Source: a virus. Taken from it: a DNA stretch of 22,406 nucleotides. Under the pieces are notes generated by a model that worked only from the letters and a program-made list of their open reading frames with translations, was not told where the DNA came from and did no database searches. Of this stretch, positions 5,669 to 18,260 are shown piece after piece (positions within the stretch are counted from its first letter, which is position 1; each line of letters opens with the position of its first letter). The position numbers were made by a program, and so were the translations under genes. The stretch covers positions 1 to 22,406 of the IMG/VR virus record IMGVR_UViG_3300032323_001669; one strand, 5' to 3'.

Positions 5669-8600
5669 ATGGACTTAGAAAAAATATGTAATATTGCAGG
5701 ATATCCCATGTATCCATGGGCATCTGCTCAATTAAAAAAAAGAAGTGAAATTTTATCAAAATCAATTCGTTCTGAAGAAGAGATAAATTATCTTGGTAAT
5801 AAAGGTGCTTGGATTAGAGTTATATCTTCAGTCAATTTAGAAGAATCATTTATTAAATATTTTAAAGATCAATATGGTTCTTTTACGGGTTTTACAGATA
5901 CTAGTAATAGCCCTGAAATTTTAGCTAAAAACTTTATACTATTTGGTGGAACTTCTGTATATGAATCTAGACTACGATCTGGTATTAATCTAGGTGGTGC
6001 TTACTCTATACTTGGAGATAAAGAAGTAAAAGAATATGGATATCGCCCAATGCCAGGTATTACAGCAATGACTATAGAATCAACTGGTAGAATGGGATCT
6101 CTTAGACAGGCAACCGTCAACTTTAGAGTCTCAGATAAAATGCAGCTTGATGTTATGGATGCGCTATATTTTAGACCTGGTTTTTCATTATTAATAGAAT
6201 ACGGACATGCCAAATATATAGATAATAATGGAAATCTGCAGTCTACAGAGAGTCTAATGATAGATCCTTTTAAAACAACAGATAAAGAAAATATTGGTAT
6301 AGAAATATCAAGAAAAATAAAAAAATCAGCTGGTAATTATGGTGGAATGTTATCGATAATAACTAGTTTTAACTTCTCAATGACATCTGATGGCGGATAT
6401 GATTGCGTTTTAAAAACAGTATCGCTTGGTGGCGTTATGGGTAATTATCCAATTAATAAATTAGAGTCTTTACCAGCAATCTATATTAAACAATTAAAAG
6501 CTTTTTTAGATAAGCAGAGAAAGGAAAGAGAAGCAGCTGAAAGAGCGGCTGTTGAAGCGGCAGCAAAAGAAGAATTAGGTAAATTACCAAAATCTACTAA
6601 GGATAATTGGGCTGATTTAAAAATAACAGACATAGCCTCTAATTTAATTTATAACATATATCCAGAGTATTTTGCCCCTGCGGCTAATAATAACGCTACC
6701 ACAGCTGAACGAGCAAATTTTGCTGTCAATAATGGATTACAAACATACATTAAATATGATAAAGATGAAGTAGCTGCTGATACGAAACGTTATCTTAATG
6801 ATGATAACAACGAGGTGGCCTTTCAAAACACAGATATTAAGGCTTTCATGATTGGGCAATTTGGCCCGGGACAAAACGCTGGTGCAATCGCTTTTGGCAA
6901 ATCTAGTTTTGATGAAGGAACACGACTCAAATATATAGCAACGCCAGAATCGACACCTCAACAAAAAGGTGACATATACGTGCGCATCGATCCTAGTTGG
7001 ATATTTGAGTCCTTTACAGGCGCTGGCGGGACTTTTACTGATGATAGAACTGTTCCTAATACTTCAACCACTCAAAGAATCAAATATGTAGAATCTACGG
7101 ATGGTTCTGATACTACTACTTCAGAAGTAATAGTATTTAGTAACTGGTTTGATGCAGTTGATGACATTTTTGATAAAAAATTAACTTACTGGGACAACTC
7201 TCAAAAAAATCGACCAAAAGCCGAAAGGCTGAAATTCACTATTGGCATTACTTATACTGGAGATAAGGCAGATGCAAGAGACGTATTTCTTTCAGATTCT
7301 ACGGAGTGGAAAGTAAAAAATATATTTTTTCGTAAAAGGATAACTACAACGCCTAATATTAAAGAACCGCCTATTCCTAATTTAGTATTAGAACATGAAA
7401 ATGATGGCCAAACATATCAAATTATTTTAGGAGATGTTATTTCTTTTGTAGGAATCACTAATCCGGATTTATCAGTTATTATAGATATTATAGAAGATGG
7501 ACCTAATCAAGATTTAAAGAAAAACAAAGTTGCTATACAAACTGATGAAATAAACGAACGCGTTGCGACTCAAATACAGGACATTAGCAATAGATATCAA
7601 ATAGAAACTGATGCAAAGACTCTTCAAGCTCTTGCAAGTTCTCAATCTGCTATCGAATTAATGTTAAGATCTATCTCATTATATGCTATAAGCCAACAAA
7701 AACCAGATGTAACACTGGATGATAATTTTATAAAAGATTTATTTTCTGAAGGCGCCTATTCAAAAATATTTAAAAAAATCAACGGAGGCAAACTTCCTGC
7801 TAAAAAATATGAATTAAGTGATTTTACTAGGTATATAAATGGATCGATGAATGCCTCAGACAGATTAGAAGTTAATCTTCGATATGGAAATAGTGCATAT
7901 TTAATGTCTGCTGAAAATACATCTGAAGATATTAATTTATTAGAAATCATACCACAGGTTGAATTAACAAATTTATTTAAAGTTAAACAATTACCATATG
8001 GTGAACGAGCAGATGTTTTAATTGATGATGCACCTGATGTATCTATTTATATAAGTCTTGGCTTATTTTTAATGATGTTAAATCATTGTAGTCTATTATA
8101 TAATAAAGGAAAACAAGATGATACAGTAGTGCCTATGACATATGTTGATTTTAATCCATCAACTAATTATTATTTGAGTAGTATAAATCAGTTTTCTATT
8201 GATCCATTTAGTTTTATTCTGCCATATTACGGAAATGATACTACGTATAAAAAATTGTTTAAACCCGGTATTATCAATAGTAATAATCAAATAGAACTTA
8301 AAATACCAGGTTCTACTATACAACCGCACTCTGTTTTTAAATTTAGTAATGATAAATTAAGTAAAGGACTTTTAAACAATAAAGTGGATTTAAATGGTAA
8401 ATCAGATGGTTATATTGGTAGAACAATGGATACTCTAGTAAATATTAATTTTCTACTAAAAATAATTAAAGATTATAGTACATCAAGCGATTTTGGTGAA
8501 ACCTATTTTCAATCAATATTAGAAAATATTACCGGTGCTTTAAATAAATCAACAGGATATTATAACGCTTTTAGATTATCTTATAGTGACAGTGCTAATA

Positions 8601-9832
8601 CATATATGATTGTTGATGATCAAGTGCAATTAAAACCAGATCCAAAAGTACAATCATTGCAATATAATATAATAACGCCTTCACCTGAATCTCCAGAAAT
8701 ACCTATACAAGGAAAAGGCTCTATTGCTAGATCATTTGAACTAAGAACAGACATTAGTAATCGTATTTCAAGTATGTTGGCTATTTCTACAAACGCTGGA
8801 GCTGGTACCCAAGTCGGTATGGGCAAAAATATGGGCGATTTTGGAGTATATAATACTGGATCATATGATAGATATATGCCGGTTAAAACAAGTGATTCAT
8901 CTTCAATAGCTCCGCAAAATAATGTTCAAGAATGCCAAGCAGCTATAAACTTTGATACGGTTGTAACATCTATATATGGACTATCTAATAGTCAAAATAA
9001 AGAGATTCTTTCAACTCAACAGGTACAGAATGCTATGTCATACTATAAAGATAGAATGGCTCGCGTTAAAAATGAACAGCCGCAGTCTGTATCGGCTATG
9101 ATTATACCAATCAGAACTACTATTACAATGGATGGATTTAGTGGTATGTATCCATTTCAATTATTTACGGTAAATGAGAATGTATTACCATATAGATATA
9201 GTTCAGCTAATTTAAATAATGGAAAAGTAGCATTTACTACAACTAAAATAACTCATAACTTTAGTAATAATGAGTGGGTGACTTCTATGGATGGACTTAT
9301 GACATTCCTTAAAAATCCAACAGATGAACAAGTAACCGCGACTATAACACAGGGAGCAATTGAAGTAAACATTACTGCAACGGGTAATGTAGTGCCTTCT
9401 ACTGGAGATTATCCAAATATAATATTTGCAGATAAAGTAGTCGGTCCATCTACACCATCAAAAGATAATATATATAAACCTCTTTTACAAGATGTTCAAG
9501 CTGCCGCTGCAGCTGCTGGGCTTACGGTTAGTATTACAACTGCTGTATCAGGTCATAATGAAACTACTAATACAGGCACACCGAGTAGACACGTTTCAGG
9601 TAATGCCGTTGATATCGCAGTAATAAATGGAGTAGGTTCTGGTGGAGCATTTAGTAGTACTAGTGGCAATGCAACATTTAGAGAACTTGGAAATAAATTT
9701 AAAAATGAACTGGTTTCACTAGGGTATAGTTGGAATGTAGAAGACGGCCAACCTAAAGCAGTTTTATGGCAAACTAGTGCTGGAGGAAACCACTTTAACC
9801 ATGTTCACGTTTCTCGTAAACCATCACCTTAA
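5669..9832 (+). CDS. large baseplate hub protein with C-terminal LAS/M15-type zinc peptidase
   Basis: This 1387-residue protein appears to combine a gp27-like hub with a cell-wall lysin. The N-terminal ~260 residues include a hub-like block (RPMPGITAMTIESTGRMGSL, then YFRPGFSLLIEYG). A charged Ala-rich helix follows near 270-305, then a long unrecognised middle. The C-terminal domain starts near residue 1264. It has PSRHVSGNAVDIA, giving H1308 and D1315 six residues apart, and HFNHVHVS with H1375, H1378 and H1380. That H-x6-D plus H-x-H pattern is the zinc site of LAS-superfamily peptidases (M15 D-Ala-D-Ala or endopeptidase type). The likely job is to cut peptidoglycan stem peptides as the tail tip crosses the envelope, where T4 uses the lysozyme domain of gp5. 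The start is three bases after the previous stop. Confidence 0.7.
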   Translation: MDLEKICNIAGYPMYPWASAQLKKRSEILSKSIRSEEEINYLGNKGAWIRVISSVNLEESFIKYFKDQYGSFTGFTDTSNSPEILAKNFILFGGTSVYESRLRSGINLGGAYSILGDKEVKEYGYRPMPGITAMTIESTGRMGSLRQATVNFRVSDKMQLDVMDALYFRPGFSLLIEYGHAKYIDNNGNLQSTESLMIDPFKTTDKENIGIEISRKIKKSAGNYGGMLSIITSFNFSMTSDGGYDCVLKTVSLGGVMGNYPINKLESLPAIYIKQLKAFLDKQRKEREAAERAAVEAAAKEELGKLPKSTKDNWADLKITDIASNLIYNIYPEYFAPAANNNATTAERANFAVNNGLQTYIKYDKDEVAADTKRYLNDDNNEVAFQNTDIKAFMIGQFGPGQNAGAIAFGKSSFDEGTRLKYIATPESTPQQKGDIYVRIDPSWIFESFTGAGGTFTDDRTVPNTSTTQRIKYVESTDGSDTTTSEVIVFSNWFDAVDDIFDKKLTYWDNSQKNRPKAERLKFTIGITYTGDKADARDVFLSDSTEWKVKNIFFRKRITTTPNIKEPPIPNLVLEHENDGQTYQIILGDVISFVGITNPDLSVIIDIIEDGPNQDLKKNKVAIQTDEINERVATQIQDISNRYQIETDAKTLQALASSQSAIELMLRSISLYAISQQKPDVTLDDNFIKDLFSEGAYSKIFKKINGGKLPAKKYELSDFTRYINGSMNASDRLEVNLRYGNSAYLMSAENTSEDINLLEIIPQVELTNLFKVKQLPYGERADVLIDDAPDVSIYISLGLFLMMLNHCSLLYNKGKQDDTVVPMTYVDFNPSTNYYLSSINQFSIDPFSFILPYYGNDTTYKKLFKPGIINSNNQIELKIPGSTIQPHSVFKFSNDKLSKGLLNNKVDLNGKSDGYIGRTMDTLVNINFLLKIIKDYSTSSDFGETYFQSILENITGALNKSTGYYNAFRLSYSDSANTYMIVDDQVQLKPDPKVQSLQYNIITPSPESPEIPIQGKGSIARSFELRTDISNRISSMLAISTNAGAGTQVGMGKNMGDFGVYNTGSYDRYMPVKTSDSSSIAPQNNVQECQAAINFDTVVTSIYGLSNSQNKEILSTQQVQNAMSYYKDRMARVKNEQPQSVSAMIIPIRTTITMDGFSGMYPFQLFTVNENVLPYRYSSANLNNGKVAFTTTKITHNFSNNEWVTSMDGLMTFLKNPTDEQVTATITQGAIEVNITATGNVVPSTGDYPNIIFADKVVGPSTPSKDNIYKPLLQDVQAAAAAAGLTVSITTAVSGHNETTNTGTPSRHVSGNAVDIAVINGVGSGGAFSSTSGNATFRELGNKFKNELVSLGYSWNVEDGQPKAVLWQTSAGGNHFNHVHVSRKPSP

Positions 9833-9852: not shown

Positions 9853-10512
9853 ATGGCTTTAAGATACTATCCCGCTTTTAGAATAAAACCAAACCAGAGT
9901 ACTACTGGTGGGCAATATTCATTAAATGGAAAACCATATATTGGTAAATACTATATTACATATGATGGCCAAGTCTTTTCAGGAGCAGATCCAGTAAGTG
10001 GACCTAATCAAAAATTAGAACCGCTTAATCTATATATTAATAATCCAATACTTTCAAATAACGCACTTCCTGGAGTACTAGTACAATCTTTAGCGTCAAC
10101 TACTACAAATTTAAATAATCAGTTGCGCGCTAATATACAAAAAAATGCTGCTAAAGCAGATAAACCAACTCCGTATTATCCTTATCCACTTCAAGAAGAC
10201 TACACTCGAGGCTATATTACAAGATACTTTATAAAAAAAATAAACAACATTGGATATATTACTGAGATATCTCAAGAAGAATATACTGATGTGCAAAATG
10301 GTGATGTACTATACGATATTGAAATGTATATGTATAATTCAATATTTTGGAAATTAACGGGACCTTTAAACACAATCAGACTTTCTCAATATGATATAAG
10401 AGAAGGTATTATAGATACTAATAAAAGATTGACTGAAAAACTAAATTTAACAATGCTAGGAATTACTGATTTTATTGGAGGAAAATACGATAAATTTGCA
10501 AAACCTAGTTAA
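9853..10512 (+). CDS. unrecognised phage structural protein
   Basis: I do not recognise this 219-residue protein. It is rich in Tyr, Asn and Pro, with an N-terminal phrase GKPYIGKYYITYDGQVFSGA (about residues 26-45) and a C-terminal part with alternating polar and aromatic residues. It has no signal peptide or membrane segment. It directly follows the hub gene in the late tail block, with a 20-base gap and an A-rich leader, so a baseplate, wedge or fibre-attachment component is the natural guess. Nothing in it is diagnostic. Confidence 0.55.
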   Translation: MALRYYPAFRIKPNQSTTGGQYSLNGKPYIGKYYITYDGQVFSGADPVSGPNQKLEPLNLYINNPILSNNALPGVLVQSLASTTTNLNNQLRANIQKNAAKADKPTPYYPYPLQEDYTRGYITRYFIKKINNIGYITEISQEEYTDVQNGDVLYDIEMYMYNSIFWKLTGPLNTIRLSQYDIREGIIDTNKRLTEKLNLTMLGITDFIGGKYDKFAKPS

Positions 10513-10521
10513 TTATCTGTA

Positions 10522-10529
10522 TATTTATT
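10522..10529 (+). promoter_or_regulatory. TATTTATT element before the first leader-peptide gene
   Basis: The octamer TATTTATT lies 29 bases before the AUG at 10551. The same element occurs before five other gene starts in this window. Promoter function is an inference from recurrence and position. Confidence 0.35.
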
Positions 10530-10550
10530 AAAAAATTAAAACATAAAATA

Positions 10551-10793
10551 ATGAACGAATTTCAAAGAATGCAAAAATTAGCTGGTTTACTAGTAGAATC
10601 TGATTTAACAGAAGATAAAAGTAAAGGATTTGAGATATATTGGGGAGATAGTGATAATCCAATGTTTAAAACTTTTTCAAGTGCTCAACAAGCTATTAAG
10701 TATGGAGAAAAAAATATAGATCTAGAAGACAAAGATTTTTCTTATTTTACAGTAAAAACTCCTAAAGGCGATATTATATATAAATCTAAATAA
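10551..10793 (+). CDS. small putative head-packaged protein 1 with capsid-targeting-like leader
   Basis: This 80-residue protein begins MNEFQRMQKLAGLLVE|SDL. The bar marks a predicted cut after Glu16 that matches the T4 gp21 protease rule (L/I)-x-E followed by a small residue. The remaining 64 residues are acidic and mixed, with YWGDSDNPMFKTF and a terminal VKTPKGDIIYKSK that looks like a short alpha/beta domain. I do not recognise the mature part. The leader is nearly the same as those of the genes at 11664 and 12166, whose bodies are unrelated, so it is a detachable signal and not a shared fold. The inferred role is a cargo protein placed in the prohead core and ejected with the DNA. Confidence 0.6.
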   Translation: MNEFQRMQKLAGLLVESDLTEDKSKGFEIYWGDSDNPMFKTFSSAQQAIKYGEKNIDLEDKDFSYFTVKTPKGDIIYKSK

Positions 10794-10805
10794 AAAATTA
10801 AAACA

Positions 10806-10873
10806 GTGAATGAAATCAAAAAGGTATGAAGACTATGTATGGCAAGAAATATCCTAATTGCGTAAAAAAATAA
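10806..10873 (+). pseudogene. possible gene remnant between two small genes
   Basis: The 96-base gap between genes holds fragments that read like coding sequence broken by frame changes. A GTG at 10806 reads (M)NEIKKV then stop, echoing the MNEI start of the neighbouring leaders. In another frame, an ATG at 10826 gives MKTMYGKKYPNCVKK and stops at 10873. The fragments may be what is left of another small gene of the cluster, or chance. There is no direct proof. Confidence 0.25.
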
Positions 10874-10875
10874 TA

Positions 10876-10883
10876 TATTTATA
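10876..10883 (+). promoter_or_regulatory. TATTTATA element before the 10890 gene
   Basis: TATTTATA lies 14 bases before the AUG at 10890, closer than in the other cases. Its reverse complement is TATAAATA, the T4 late promoter consensus, but no minus-strand gene would use it. Its role as a forward promoter element is inferred from the repeated pattern. Confidence 0.3.
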
Positions 10884-10889
10884 CATAAA

Positions 10890-11207
10890 ATGATAAACCT
10901 ACTCCAATTATTAACTGAAGTTAAAGAAAGCTTTGAAACATTTGCTCAAATACGAGGCAAAGGCGCTGCTAAAATTGCTTCTACTGCTGAAGAAAAAGGT
11001 GGATTAGCTCTATTAACATGGCATCATTTTAAAGTTAAAGCTCCATATTATAAAAAAGCGACTGAGGGTAAATTTGATAAAGAGGCTGCTAAAAAAGAAT
11101 TTGAAGAAACATATAAAAAAATCTCATTAGATATGACTCAAATTGAATTTCAACGTGAAGTTGGACGTTTAGAGGTGTTAGGCGAATTATTAATAAGAGA
11201 AAAATAA
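10890..11207 (+). CDS. small putative head-packaged protein 2 with short capsid-targeting-like leader
   Basis: This 105-residue protein starts MINLLQLLTE|VKES, a 10-residue leader of the length seen in T4 internal proteins, with the predicted cut after Glu10 in L-T-E. The mature part is helical and Lys/Glu-rich, with GKGAAKIASTAEEKGGLALL and a later TQIEFQREVGRLEVLGELLI, consistent with a small helical bundle. I cannot name the family. It is followed after five bases by the next leader-bearing gene, so the two are co-transcribed. The protease recognition is inferred from the sequence only. Confidence 0.6.
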   Translation: MINLLQLLTEVKESFETFAQIRGKGAAKIASTAEEKGGLALLTWHHFKVKAPYYKKATEGKFDKEAAKKEFEETYKKISLDMTQIEFQREVGRLEVLGELLIREK

Positions 11208-11212
11208 ACAAT

Positions 11213-11653
11213 ATGGATACTTTTGATTTAAGACAATATTTAGCTGAAGGAAAATTATATGAAGCAGCCATGGCTTGCCCTCTTCCTACTCAAGATCTAG
11301 AACTTAATACTAGAAACAGAGATTCATCTATTAAAGCAGATTATATTAAATACGGTCCTTTAAATGTTGATGAACCTGGAAAATTTTGGGACGAATTAGC
11401 AAAACATTGGGATACAACCACTGAAGCAGCACAACAATCACTATGTGGTAATTGTGCCGCATTCGATATTTCACCAAGAATGGAAGATTGTATGCCTGGT
11501 CCATTATCAGACGATGATGGTAGATTAGGATATTGTTGGATGCATAGTTTTAAATGCCATTCGGCTCGTACTTGTAGAACATGGGCTAAAGGCGGACCTA
11601 TAGAAGAAGATTCTATATCTTATGAATGGCAAGAACGTAAAGAAGAACAATAA
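11213..11653 (+). CDS. cysteine-rich putative head-packaged protein 3
   Basis: This 146-residue protein begins MDTFDLRQYLAE|GKLYE, a leader of 12 residues ending in L-A-E before Gly. The body has a compact cysteine set: CGNC at 78-81, then C93, C108, C115 and C121, in the phrases CGNCAAFDISPRMEDC and GYCWMHSFKCHSARTCRTW. The spacing suggests a zinc or iron-sulfur site, and I recall similar Cys-rich proteins in marine T4-like phages without a known function. An additional Cys22 lies near the leader. The start was chosen because the next upstream stop belongs to the previous gene and the leader begins exactly here. If cleaved as predicted, 134 residues including the whole metal-site region would enter the head. 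Confidence 0.6.
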   Translation: MDTFDLRQYLAEGKLYEAAMACPLPTQDLELNTRNRDSSIKADYIKYGPLNVDEPGKFWDELAKHWDTTTEAAQQSLCGNCAAFDISPRMEDCMPGPLSDDDGRLGYCWMHSFKCHSARTCRTWAKGGPIEEDSISYEWQERKEEQ

Positions 11654-11663
11654 AATAAATACA

Positions 11664-12143
11664 ATGAACGAAATTACTAGAATGCAACTGTTGGCTGGCC
11701 TTATTACAGAGGCTGAAGCAGCACATCCAAGTCAATATAAAGCACCTGAAGGCAGTGATAGAGATGAGAAGTTAGATAAAGCAAAAGAACTATTAAAAAA
11801 AGGCGATAAAGAGGCGGCGTATAATCTACGTGATAAGATGGAAAAAGACGCAAGATCTAAACCAGACTTTAAAAATAAGCCACGTAAAGACTCTAAAGTA
11901 GATGAAGCTAAAAAGAAAGCTGGCAAAAATCTAAGTAAAGAAACTGAAGCAAAAATAAGAGCAGTGGCAACTAAAAAAGACTATTCATTTGCAGATCTTA
12001 AAAGAGAATACGTTAAAGGATTAGGAGCATTCTACTCCTCAGGATCTAGACCAGGAATGACAGCGCATCAATGGGCCATGGCAAGAGTTAATTCAGCATC
12101 ACCCAGCAAATCATGGGCAGACGTAAAAAAAGTTAAAAAGTAA
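11664..12143 (+). CDS. basic putative head-packaged protein 4 with RPGxxAHQWAMARVNS domain
   Basis: The start is taken at 11664, not at the earlier in-frame ATG at 11622. The latter lies inside the previous gene, while 11664 gives the leader MNEITRMQLLAGLITE|AEA, which matches its neighbours. The protein is then 159 residues. After the leader comes a Lys/Asp/Glu-rich, strongly charged, probably helical region. The C-terminal domain contains GLGAFYSSGSRPGMTAHQWA followed by MARVNS, a conserved phrase I associate with phage proteins of unknown function (DUF5824-like, from memory). The high Lys content would suit a protein packed against DNA, as T4 internal proteins are. No enzyme motif is visible. 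Confidence 0.6.
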   Translation: MNEITRMQLLAGLITEAEAAHPSQYKAPEGSDRDEKLDKAKELLKKGDKEAAYNLRDKMEKDARSKPDFKNKPRKDSKVDEAKKKAGKNLSKETEAKIRAVATKKDYSFADLKREYVKGLGAFYSSGSRPGMTAHQWAMARVNSASPSKSWADVKKVKK

Positions 12144-12165
12144 ACTGCAATTAAAATAAAATATA

Positions 12166-12429
12166 ATGAACGAATTTAAAAGAATGCAGCAAATAGCTGG
12201 TATCATTACTGAGTCTGAATTAAAAGAAAATGAATTACAAAACTATATGTTCTTTTCAAATTTAAAACAGATGAAAAGACAAATTGAAATGATAATGGAG
12301 ATGAATCCTATTGTGGTTGATAGCATTCTTCAAAATGGTCATGATTGGGCCGATGATCATATTTCTGAAGCAAAAACAAATATGGATCAAGTATTTGATT
12401 TTTTAAAAAATGAAATGGATAAAAGCTAA
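12166..12429 (+). CDS. small putative head-packaged protein 5 with capsid-targeting-like leader
   Basis: This 87-residue protein starts MNEFKRMQQIAGIITE|SEL; 13 of the 16 leader positions match or conservatively match those of the genes at 10551 and 11664. The mature 71 residues are helical and Met-rich, with FFSNLKQMKRQIEMIMEM and NGHDWADDHISEAKTNMDQV. The pattern suggests a short helical hairpin, possibly a protein-binding module. I recall related short proteins from cyanophages but cannot give a function. It is the last clear gene before the terminator and so closes the late operon. Confidence 0.6.
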   Translation: MNEFKRMQQIAGIITESELKENELQNYMFFSNLKQMKRQIEMIMEMNPIVVDSILQNGHDWADDHISEAKTNMDQVFDFLKNEMDKS

Positions 12430-12484
12430 TTAATTTTCTTATTGTAAATAAAAAAATAAAATTGAAAATTCTTCTGAAGGTAAA

Positions 12485-12580
12485 ATGTTAAAACTTATAG
12501 TAAAAAATCAATTAGAATATGATGGAGCCCGTAGAGGTGGAACAATGCTAGATATATTTAATTTAGTTGATAGATACTAA
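12485..12580 (+). CDS. possible 31-residue protein
   Basis: The ATG at 12485 opens a frame reading MLKLIVKNQLEYDGARRGGT then MLDIFNLVDRY and a stop. The frame is open upstream to 12452, so a slightly longer product from a non-AUG start is possible. A GAAGG sequence lies four bases before the ATG. Composition is protein-like (mixed charged and hydrophobic residues, ending in an acidic helix), and it fills the space between the last leader gene and the terminator. It could equally be the 3' remnant of a larger gene. I recognise no family. Confidence 0.35.
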   Translation: MLKLIVKNQLEYDGARRGGTMLDIFNLVDRY

Positions 12581-12601
12581 TAACAATAAAAATTTTAAAT
12601 T

Positions 12602-12627
12602 AAGCCTAGGTTTTCTAGGCTTTTTTT
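12602..12627 (+). terminator. intrinsic terminator closing the late tail/cargo operon
   Basis: AAGCCTAG (12602-12609) pairs perfectly with CTAGGCTT (12615-12622) around a GTTTT loop, and seven T residues run from 12621 to 12627. This is a classic rho-independent terminator. It separates the tail and small-protein block from the replication block. The 73 bases after it (12628-12700) are AT-rich leader in which I see no clear element. Confidence 0.9.
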
Positions 12628-12700
12628 ATGCGACTTAGAATTTAAACTTTACGATTACAAAACAAAAGACTATATTTAATTTAATCAAAGGTTATGTTAA

Positions 12701-14005
12701 ATGTATTTTATAGTTGAAACACAAGATCAGTTATGTCAACTATCTCCTAAAGATAATTGTTTCATTCAAGTTATACCATCTTCAGATAGATATCATCCAA
12801 CGCTATCCAGATGCTCACTAGTCTACTATAATGATGGAACCAAAGGTTATATATTCCCGATAAATCATAGCGAAGGATTCAGCCTAGAAATAGCCCAAAT
12901 TGAGTCTTTTATTAATGCCCATAAGAAAGTTTATTTACTAGATAGAAAATTCCACTCTTATTTCTTAAATGTTGAAAATTCAGTCGATGTAAACTTTATA
13001 CGAGTAGATCAAGGCATAGAAGAATCTAAGATAGAATGCGATACACTTTTGCATAGAGACTTTAATCAAAAATACAGTACTGGATGGATTAATGAGATTA
13101 TTCCTATTGTCAAACATTATGAGAAGTGCGAAGACTTATATAGTAAAATAGAACCACTATTTGAATTAGAAGCAGACTACTCAATACTAAATAAATCTAC
13201 TGATGCGTATAAATGGGTTGAAACGCAAGGCATAAAAGTAGACACTCAAAAACTAAAAGACGCATACAAAAATGATAATATAAAGTATGGAATAAAAGAT
13301 GATATGGCCTATACATACTATAATATGTATAATATAACTGGTCGACCTACTAATTCATTCAATTCTATTAACTTTGTAGCAATACCCAAAACACAAGAGT
13401 TTAGAGACTGTTTTATTCCAGAAAATGATTTTATGGTTGAGTTTGACTTTGATGCATATCACTTAAGACTTATCGCTAAAGCTGTAGAATATGAATTTCC
13501 AAATAGTGATACTTCAATCCACGAGCAATTAGGCAAATTTTACTTTGAAAAAGATCAACTTACTGAAGAAGAATACTCAAAGTCAAAAGAGATAACATTC
13601 AAACAACTTTATGGCGGAATTGAAGACAGATATAAAAACATTGAATTTTTTACAAAACTTGATAGCTTTATAGAATCTTTATATGCCACATATAAAAAAC
13701 AAGGATCGATAAAACTTCCTACTGGAAAGCTACTTAGAAGATCTGAAGATATGAACAAACTTAAATTATTTAACTATTGGGTTCAAAACTTAGAAACCAA
13801 AGTTAATACAGAAAAAATCTTGGACATAAAAGATTATATAGAGAGTGCTAAATGCAAAACTAAGCTAATACTTATAACATATGATGCATTCTTATTTGAC
13901 TATTCTATACAAGATGGAAAGCAATTTCTTATAGACATTAAAAATATTATGCAAAAAGACGGATACGGAGTAAAACTAAAAAGAGGCACTTCATACTTTC
14001 TATAA
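12701..14005 (+). CDS. short family A DNA polymerase with degenerate exonuclease-like N-terminus
   Basis: This 434-residue protein carries the three family A polymerase motifs. Motif A is VEFDFDAYHLRLIA (about 246-259), with D249 aligned to the catalytic Asp705 of E. coli Pol I. Motif B is KEITFKQLYGG, giving K296, F300 and Y304 in the O-helix positions. Motif C is TYDAFLF, with D395 in the catalytic place. Position 254 is His where Pol I has the ribose-excluding Glu710. The first ~150 residues follow the strand order of the 3'-5' exonuclease domain (GYIFPINH, then VYLLDRKFHSY), but the D-x-E and D metal ligands are absent. It opens the replication block and is probably the replicative polymerase. 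T4 relatives normally encode a family B enzyme (gp43) here. The total length is well below Klenow fragment (~605 residues). Confidence 0.75.
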   Translation: MYFIVETQDQLCQLSPKDNCFIQVIPSSDRYHPTLSRCSLVYYNDGTKGYIFPINHSEGFSLEIAQIESFINAHKKVYLLDRKFHSYFLNVENSVDVNFIRVDQGIEESKIECDTLLHRDFNQKYSTGWINEIIPIVKHYEKCEDLYSKIEPLFELEADYSILNKSTDAYKWVETQGIKVDTQKLKDAYKNDNIKYGIKDDMAYTYYNMYNITGRPTNSFNSINFVAIPKTQEFRDCFIPENDFMVEFDFDAYHLRLIAKAVEYEFPNSDTSIHEQLGKFYFEKDQLTEEEYSKSKEITFKQLYGGIEDRYKNIEFFTKLDSFIESLYATYKKQGSIKLPTGKLLRRSEDMNKLKLFNYWVQNLETKVNTEKILDIKDYIESAKCKTKLILITYDAFLFDYSIQDGKQFLIDIKNIMQKDGYGVKLKRGTSYFL

Positions 14006-17522: not shown

Positions 17523-18260
17523 ATGGCATATATCTATAGACATATAAGATTAGACACAAATGAAGTTTTCTATATTGGCATAGGGTCTGATCAAAGCGGA
17601 GAATTTACGAGAGCATACTCTGAACATGGTAGAAATTATTTTTGGAAAAATATAACGAAGCTTGCAAATTATAAAGTAGAAATAATTTCTGAAACTTGGC
17701 TAACTTGGCAAGAAGCCTGTGAAAAAGAAAAATTTTGGATTACTTTTTATGGAAGAGCAGATTTAAAAAAAGGATCTTTAGTTAATATGACAGATGGAGG
17801 AGATGGCGGATTTGGAGTAATACCGTCAAAAGCAACAAGAAAAAAAATTAGCGATGCTAATAAAGGACATAAAACAACTAAAGAGACTAGAGAAAAAATA
17901 AGTATAGCTAATAAAGGAAAAAAAAGATCAGATGAATTTAGAAAGTTTATGAGTGAAATTAATCTTGGTAATAAAAAGATGGTTGGCAAAAAACACTCAG
18001 AAGAAGCAAAGAAAAAGATGAGTGAAAAAGCTTTGCAAAGAGGCGTTGAATTTTCTAAAAAAATGTCAGAGATTAAAAAGGGACCTAAAAATCCTAAAGC
18101 AAAAAAAGTAGATCAGTATAGTATAGATGGAAAATTTATAAAAACATGGTCTTATATTACAGAAGTTATAGAAAAATTAGGTATACTTCATATAGATCAA
18201 GTATGTTTAGGTAAAAGAAAAACTGCTGGAGGATTTATTTGGAAATATAATAATAAATAA
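17523..18260 (+). CDS. GIY-YIG homing endonuclease with NUMOD3 repeats
   Basis: This 245-residue free-standing homing endonuclease is of the SegA type. The catalytic domain opens with YIYRHI at residues 3-8 and FYIGIG at 16-21 (the GIY and YIG elements). R30 in FTRAYSEHG and a Glu in ACEKEKFW (about 68-75) complete the site. Residues ~100-170 hold repeated NUMOD3 modules (TRKKISDANKGHKTTKETR, REKISIANKGKK, SEEAKKKMSEKALQRG) that wrap DNA. The end (KKVDQYSIDGKFIKTWS to FIWKY) matches a NUMOD1-like helix-turn-helix. It cuts a specific site in phages lacking it and so spreads itself with flanking DNA. The adjacent FEN and helicase genes are the obvious target candidates. Both neighbours are intact, so it is intergenic and not within an intron. 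Confidence 0.9.
   Translation: MAYIYRHIRLDTNEVFYIGIGSDQSGEFTRAYSEHGRNYFWKNITKLANYKVEIISETWLTWQEACEKEKFWITFYGRADLKKGSLVNMTDGGDGGFGVIPSKATRKKISDANKGHKTTKETREKISIANKGKKRSDEFRKFMSEINLGNKKMVGKKHSEEAKKKMSEKALQRGVEFSKKMSEIKKGPKNPKAKKVDQYSIDGKFIKTWSYITEVIEKLGILHIDQVCLGKRKTAGGFIWKYNNK

Follow-up and report, generated by a model that had tools for sequence, protein, structure and literature searches.

Five consecutive small genes in a fragment of a T4-like phage appear to form a cassette of head-targeted, protease-released cargo, in which one class of N-terminal leader (class B) would mimic the docking tail of the head scaffold; we put the probability of this reading at about 85%. The head of this virus probably carries selected proteins and injects them. 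The fragment, a virus record of 22,406 bases, is called the window below. It is related to Flavobacterium phage vB_FspM_immuto (immuto; 160 kb, Baltic Sea), to which its UvsX protein is 61% identical, and its virus is a virus of Bacteroidota bacteria. The nearest long relative is an uncultured record of 158 kb (G006), with 85% identity to the window in both helicase and UvsX. A search for closely similar DNA of the region among phage records gave no match, and an Rfam scan of the window found no family.

The five genes and their leaders

Baseplate and tail genes occupy the window up to position 10512, the five cargo candidates follow, and replication genes come after them; the head genes, including the phage's own scaffold and protease, are outside the 22-kb fragment. 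Elsewhere in the window, the baseplate region encodes a 1,387 aa protein (5669-9832) whose C-terminus looks peptidase- or carboxypeptidase-like and whose immuto counterpart is annotated as a carboxypeptidase, and an ORF at 17523-18260, between the exonuclease and helicase genes, resembles GIY-YIG homing endonucleases, with several similar copies in another record (G009). The features of the cassette region are the following, with an arrow marking each candidate cut.

10551..10793, + strand: P1, cargo candidate of 80 aa; an ORF with class B leader MNEFQRMQKLAGLLVE↓S at 10551-10598, the leader being in the top 28 of the scaffold-tail profile ranking
10826..10873, + strand: relic of a sixth cargo gene, its last 15 codons (MKTMYGKKYPNCVKK) and stop; matches the end of the gene found before P2 in relatives
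10890..11207, + strand: P2, 105 aa; class A leader MINLLQLLTE↓V at 10890-10919, all-helical body
11213..11653, + strand: P3, 146 aa; class C leader MDTFDLRQYLAE↓G at 11213-11248, Cys-rich body
11664..12143, + strand: P4, 159 aa; class B leader MNEITRMQLLAGLITE↓A at 11664-11711, DUF5824 (PF19141) body
12166..12429, + strand: P5, 87 aa; class B leader MNEFKRMQQIAGIITE↓S at 12166-12213, body corresponding to the first domain of longer proteins elsewhere
12602..12622, + strand: terminator-like hairpin with a T run, downstream of the cassette; the sole such site in 10400-12800, where 0.7 is expected by chance

The original prediction, made by reading the sequence, had described five adjacent ORFs whose products begin with a short leader ending in (L/I)xE and continue into bodies unrelated to one another. 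All of this was confirmed: the ORFs and their N-termini are as described, the sites are LVE↓S, LTE↓V, LAE↓G, ITE↓A and ITE↓S, and the bodies are indeed unrelated. The further claim that one leader is common to all five genes was not upheld, since there are three leader classes and only the leaders at 10551, 11664 and 12166 are alike. The longest ORF of P4 begins at 11622, and we favour the ATG at 11664 despite this because of the leader homology that follows it. The sequence TATATTTAT, present upstream of P1 and P2, has a frequency not above chance.

With the E placed at residue 10-16, the pattern [LI]xE[SVGA] turns up in 2.3-3.1% of matched control stretches taken from further inside the same proteins, over 2,155 genes from related phages, which gives a p of about 3e-8 for such a site in five consecutive genes; it is found in none of the other 17 window genes. 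All five leaders have the length and ending of T4-type CTS cargo (about 7-20 residues, ending in (L/I)xE), and classes A, B and C all differ from the T4-type leader itself, MKTYQEFIAE with its targeting residues 4 and 7. Class B (P1, P4 and P5) has the consensus MNE(F/I)xRMQx(L/I)AG(L/I)(L/I)xE, or in short MNExxRMQxLAGxxxE; class A (P2) reads M-I-K/N-L-x-x-I/L-L-x-E and class C (P3) FDLRxYLAE, and each of the latter two is common in other phages. The class B coding stretches of P1, P4 and P5 share 67-76% DNA identity, with synonymous differences among the changes, and thus do not come from one recent duplication.

The class B leader and the scaffold tail

In the loci where the gene is readable, the scaffold (in the gp22 position, just before gp23) nearly always has the C-terminus [IVL]xE...R(M/W/F)(Q/K)KLAG(I/L)(I/L). 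We ran a profile built from 28 unique scaffold tails, with the window excluded, over 630,690 eleven-residue segments of 20 records. Terminal positions make up 13% of the segments scanned, and the best 28 of the 630,690 comprised 15 scaffold tails, 12 N-terminal leaders, of which the window supplied 3, and one further C-terminus; internal matches began at rank 29, with a score of 18.3. The leaders of P1, P4 and P5 scored 27.2, 21.4 and 19.4 with this tail-only profile and contain the motif R(M/W/F)(Q/K)xLAG(I/L), and in ten shuffled proteomes used as a control one best score was 22.2 and all others were at most 19.1. From this ranking against internal segments and shuffled proteomes, class B is, as far as sequence can tell, the N-terminal counterpart of the tail that ends the scaffold. 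The order of the parts differs between the two: in the scaffold the protease-type site precedes the tail, and in the cargo it comes after. We saw no fine covariation between leaders and the phage's own scaffold tail (the immuto tail has RWQ, its leaders RMQ), which speaks against recent copying. A point against the preferred reading is that class B leaders are absent from G006 even though that record has the scaffold tail.

Two other proteins end in similar fashion. The one non-scaffold C-terminus in the top 28 belongs to a 914-residue protein (G019:C1:112288-115032, in L104) that has the RMQxLAG motif at both termini and no Pfam match, and a 263-aa protein encoded just before a scaffold gene (G042:C1:25004 ff., in L269) has the scaffold-like end INRLKKLAGL.

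The T4 counterpart of the scaffold, gp22, has the same gene position before gp23, and its short C-terminal tail likewise comes after an xxE site (FVTE↓A in T4); T4-like tails, however, are Y-centred (MGAYVDALSR and similar), whereas those of this clade read RMQKLAGII. An extension of scaffold mimicry to T4 was tried and rejected: with a small profile from seven non-T4 gp22 tails, MKTYQEFIAE ranked 691 of 50,545 in T4 and is not significantly similar, so mimicry is claimed here for this clade only. By visual alignment, the conserved Y of those gp22 tails and one of their hydrophobic residues can be set against the leader residues needed for targeting in T4 (4 and 7).

Leader exchange, cassette turnover and the prohead protease

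Leaders of classes A to D are found on many different proteins in immuto, in the records G001, G019 and G006 and in others, concentrated upstream of the terminase gene, and several genomes have about ten or more leader genes each. Examples from immuto are these.

immuto gp082: body about 80% identical to P2
immuto gp083: leader with candidate site MKKQILSEQFRRMQKLAGIITE↓S
immuto gp230: leader with candidate site MKKQILSEQFKRMQFLAGIITE↓S
immuto gp231: leader with candidate site MIKLIDLLTE↓S

In unscored comparisons by eye, class A resembles major capsid protein N-termini (MELNQLFEG, MEINNLLES), class C the N-terminus of a small gene adjoining the protease (MENFNLKKFLVEN) and class D that of a gene upstream of the protease (MKKSQLVAIVKEVLEE). 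Such likeness of classes A, C and D to head-operon N-termini would also be expected if the proteins helped to shape the head as accessory proteins of the core or scaffold, like T4 gp67/gp68, and were then digested by the protease, rather than being cargo delivered to the host. We consider this unlikely, since the cassette lies outside the head operon, its bodies are variable and are gained and lost, and some leader-bearing proteins of relatives have bodies that look enzymatic, among them a Zeta-toxin-like kinase (L239:11579-12280), a NUDIX hydrolase (L236:15979-16488) and a ferritin-like protein (L105:1590-2138). The cassette does turn over: it is absent from G006, where the same two flanking genes are separated by a 67-base gap, and the window holds the relic of a sixth gene. 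This relic (10826-10873) is identical at 14 of 15 positions to the sequence just upstream of P2 in four loci (L281, L305, L106 and L317) and at 13 of 14 in a fifth (L307), and the gene is intact in relatives.

As read from homologues in other phages, the leaders are swappable modules, with unrelated bodies behind interchangeable leaders as in T4-type CTS cargo. P2 bodies are 80-83% identical in immuto and G001, where the leaders are MRLLELLREA and MIKLTDILNEV. Relatives of P2 occur at 320 viral loci, and 58 of 62 unique homologues retain [LIVM]xE at the leader end, G replacing the E in a few; bacterial genomes gave one partial match, in a metagenome-assembled genome. The 19 members of the P3 family carry a class A leader in 16 cases and a class C leader in 3 (that of the window included), and a homologue in phage DSL-LC01 is without a leader. 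P4 has a class B leader in the window, its homologues in other phages have T4-like leaders (for example MILTFDQYCILE↓S and MYVKPFNEYISLLE↓K), and a homologue in Pelagibacter phage HTVC026P is leaderless. A relative of P5 is encoded in at least 598 of the 599 matched stretches listed; among 91 such proteins from retrieved loci the leader is mostly MKTVKLTESDLNRIVKKVLSE↓Q, and it is of class B in the window and in one other locus (L404). Finally, one more body (KGLWxNIxAKRxRGExPARKG), unrelated to P1-P5, follows different leaders in two phages: in cyanophage P-SSM7 it stands behind MKTYSQFIEE, which very closely resembles the capsid-targeting sequence of T4, and in G006 behind the class A leader MISLISILQE.

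Pfam and PHROGs gave a confident family for P4 only (PF19141, 35.1 bits against a gathering cut-off of 25), and P1 is an orphan whose body has no homologue among viral contigs. The AlphaFold model of P2 (pLDDT 94) is all-helical; it has no fold match in the PDB, and its single confident match in a viral library is an uncharacterised phage protein. P3 homologues are annotated as 'high potential iron-sulfur protein' and have 7 invariant Cys, the predicted model of P3 being of low confidence (pLDDT 37).

Among the classes, B alone matches a scaffold terminus strongly in a scored comparison, and one might therefore suppose that it is the only true head-targeting signal and that the class A and C N-termini are simply the natural starts of P2 and P3. 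The exchange of leaders makes this quite improbable: the P3 body stands behind class A or class C depending on the phage and is leaderless in a phage without an S77 protease, and P2-type leaders sit on many unrelated neighbouring bodies.

The original prediction had named a genome without a gp21-like protease as grounds for its refutation. None is encoded in the 22-kb fragment, but relatives do encode the Pfam S77 family (PF03420), namely immuto, G001, G019 and the nearest long relative, G006. Of the 19 large records in which P2, P4 or P5 has a leader-bearing homologue, 17 encode an S77 protease; of 3 complete phages with leaderless P3 or P4 homologues, none does. Major capsid proteins in this clade retain the cut site to be expected, ENQAKQ(L/I)VxE. 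The presence of the protease in relatives, its distribution, the swapping of leaders (T4-type ones included) and the scaffold tail match support the predicted head targeting and gp21-type release. They also make it very improbable that the leaders, short and amphipathic as class B is, have nothing to do with the head and serve in regulation or localisation, for instance as tags for the host membrane or for degradation, with an incidental xE, since the scaffold-tail match is close, the E is conserved, leaders swap with T4-type ones and their presence is tied to the S77 protease.

Two head genes of G006 are unusually long. Its prohead protease ORF (G006:C1:81498-83207, in L095; 569 aa) has about 365 extra, intein-like residues directly after the conserved GELDHPE, and its portal (gp20) ORF (G006:C1:85675-88968, in L095) runs to 1,097 aa where relatives have about 620 and may hold an intein or other insertion.

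A model for loading and delivery

In the head-cargo reading that we prefer, a capsid-address peptide at the N-terminus of each protein, with (L/I)xE at its end, would dock the protein into the core or shell during prohead assembly; the S77 (gp21-type) prohead protease would then cut after the E and free the body inside the head, and the freed bodies would be ejected together with the DNA. Address peptides would be swappable, with several classes side by side, and the simplest reading would have class B cargo and scaffold use one docking surface. We infer that the proteins are packaged, cleaved and ejected and that cargo and scaffold share a docking surface; docking, cleavage, head retention and ejection are established for T4 internal proteins (PMC9026906, PMC3012670). 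It seems about an even bet that, across this large group of T4-like phages, cargo is recruited more generally by mimicry of head-assembly parts, with class B copying the scaffold tail, the other classes copying capsid or core N-termini, and any body becoming cargo through its tag.

T4 leaders are cut after L/I-x-E and precede unrelated bodies, the internal proteins co-purify with gp22, and targeting needs leader residues 4 and 7 (PMC9026906). The present proteins resemble T4 IPI-IPIII and Alt in their short N-terminal (L/I)xE leader, their unrelated small bodies, the S77 protease of the phage and a variable gene complement (PMC9026906, PMC12373910); they differ in having several leader classes in place of MKTYQEFIAE, one of which copies the scaffold C-terminus, and in their number, about ten or more leader genes against a handful in T4. 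In phiKZ and SPN3US, head proteins, ejected ones included, likewise bear propeptides cut by a gp21-like protease (PMC10052503), but the motif is AXE in SPN3US and the propeptides are mostly much longer (20-254 residues). In herpesviruses the scaffold attaches to the major capsid protein through its C-terminal end, and maturation involves a related protease (PMC8539031; protease homology, PMC9026906), so docking of the tail to shell or core is a natural reading here; this is an analogy only, and we found no described herpesvirus cargo that uses the same tail.

T-even ip genes were found earlier by leader detection (PMC12373910), and leader-tagged head cargo is known from T4. The literature searched, with subscription papers and preprints outside it, yielded no virion proteomics of this clade and no account of the present leader classes, of swapping between them or of copying of the scaffold C-terminus by cargo leaders; classes, swapping and mimicry appear to be new. 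T4 internal proteins are described as held in the core by affinity, and a docking site for the leader is not given in the literature searched; the tail-like leader names a candidate docking surface.

What the bodies do is a matter for speculation. T4 Ip1-3 all inhibit type IV restriction enzymes (PMC12373910) and immuto has genes annotated for 7-deazaguanine DNA modification, so a similar pressure is plausible, and the bodies might counter host defence or aid host takeover. By analogy with Ip1-3 (PMC12373910) they are candidate counter-defence or take-over factors. Used as a sequence rule, the leader classes point to many candidate head-cargo proteins in environmental phages, with NUDIX, Zeta-toxin-like kinase, ferritin-like and nucleotidase-like ones among them, and the mimicry, if true, would give a widespread and readable code for finding injected phage proteins.
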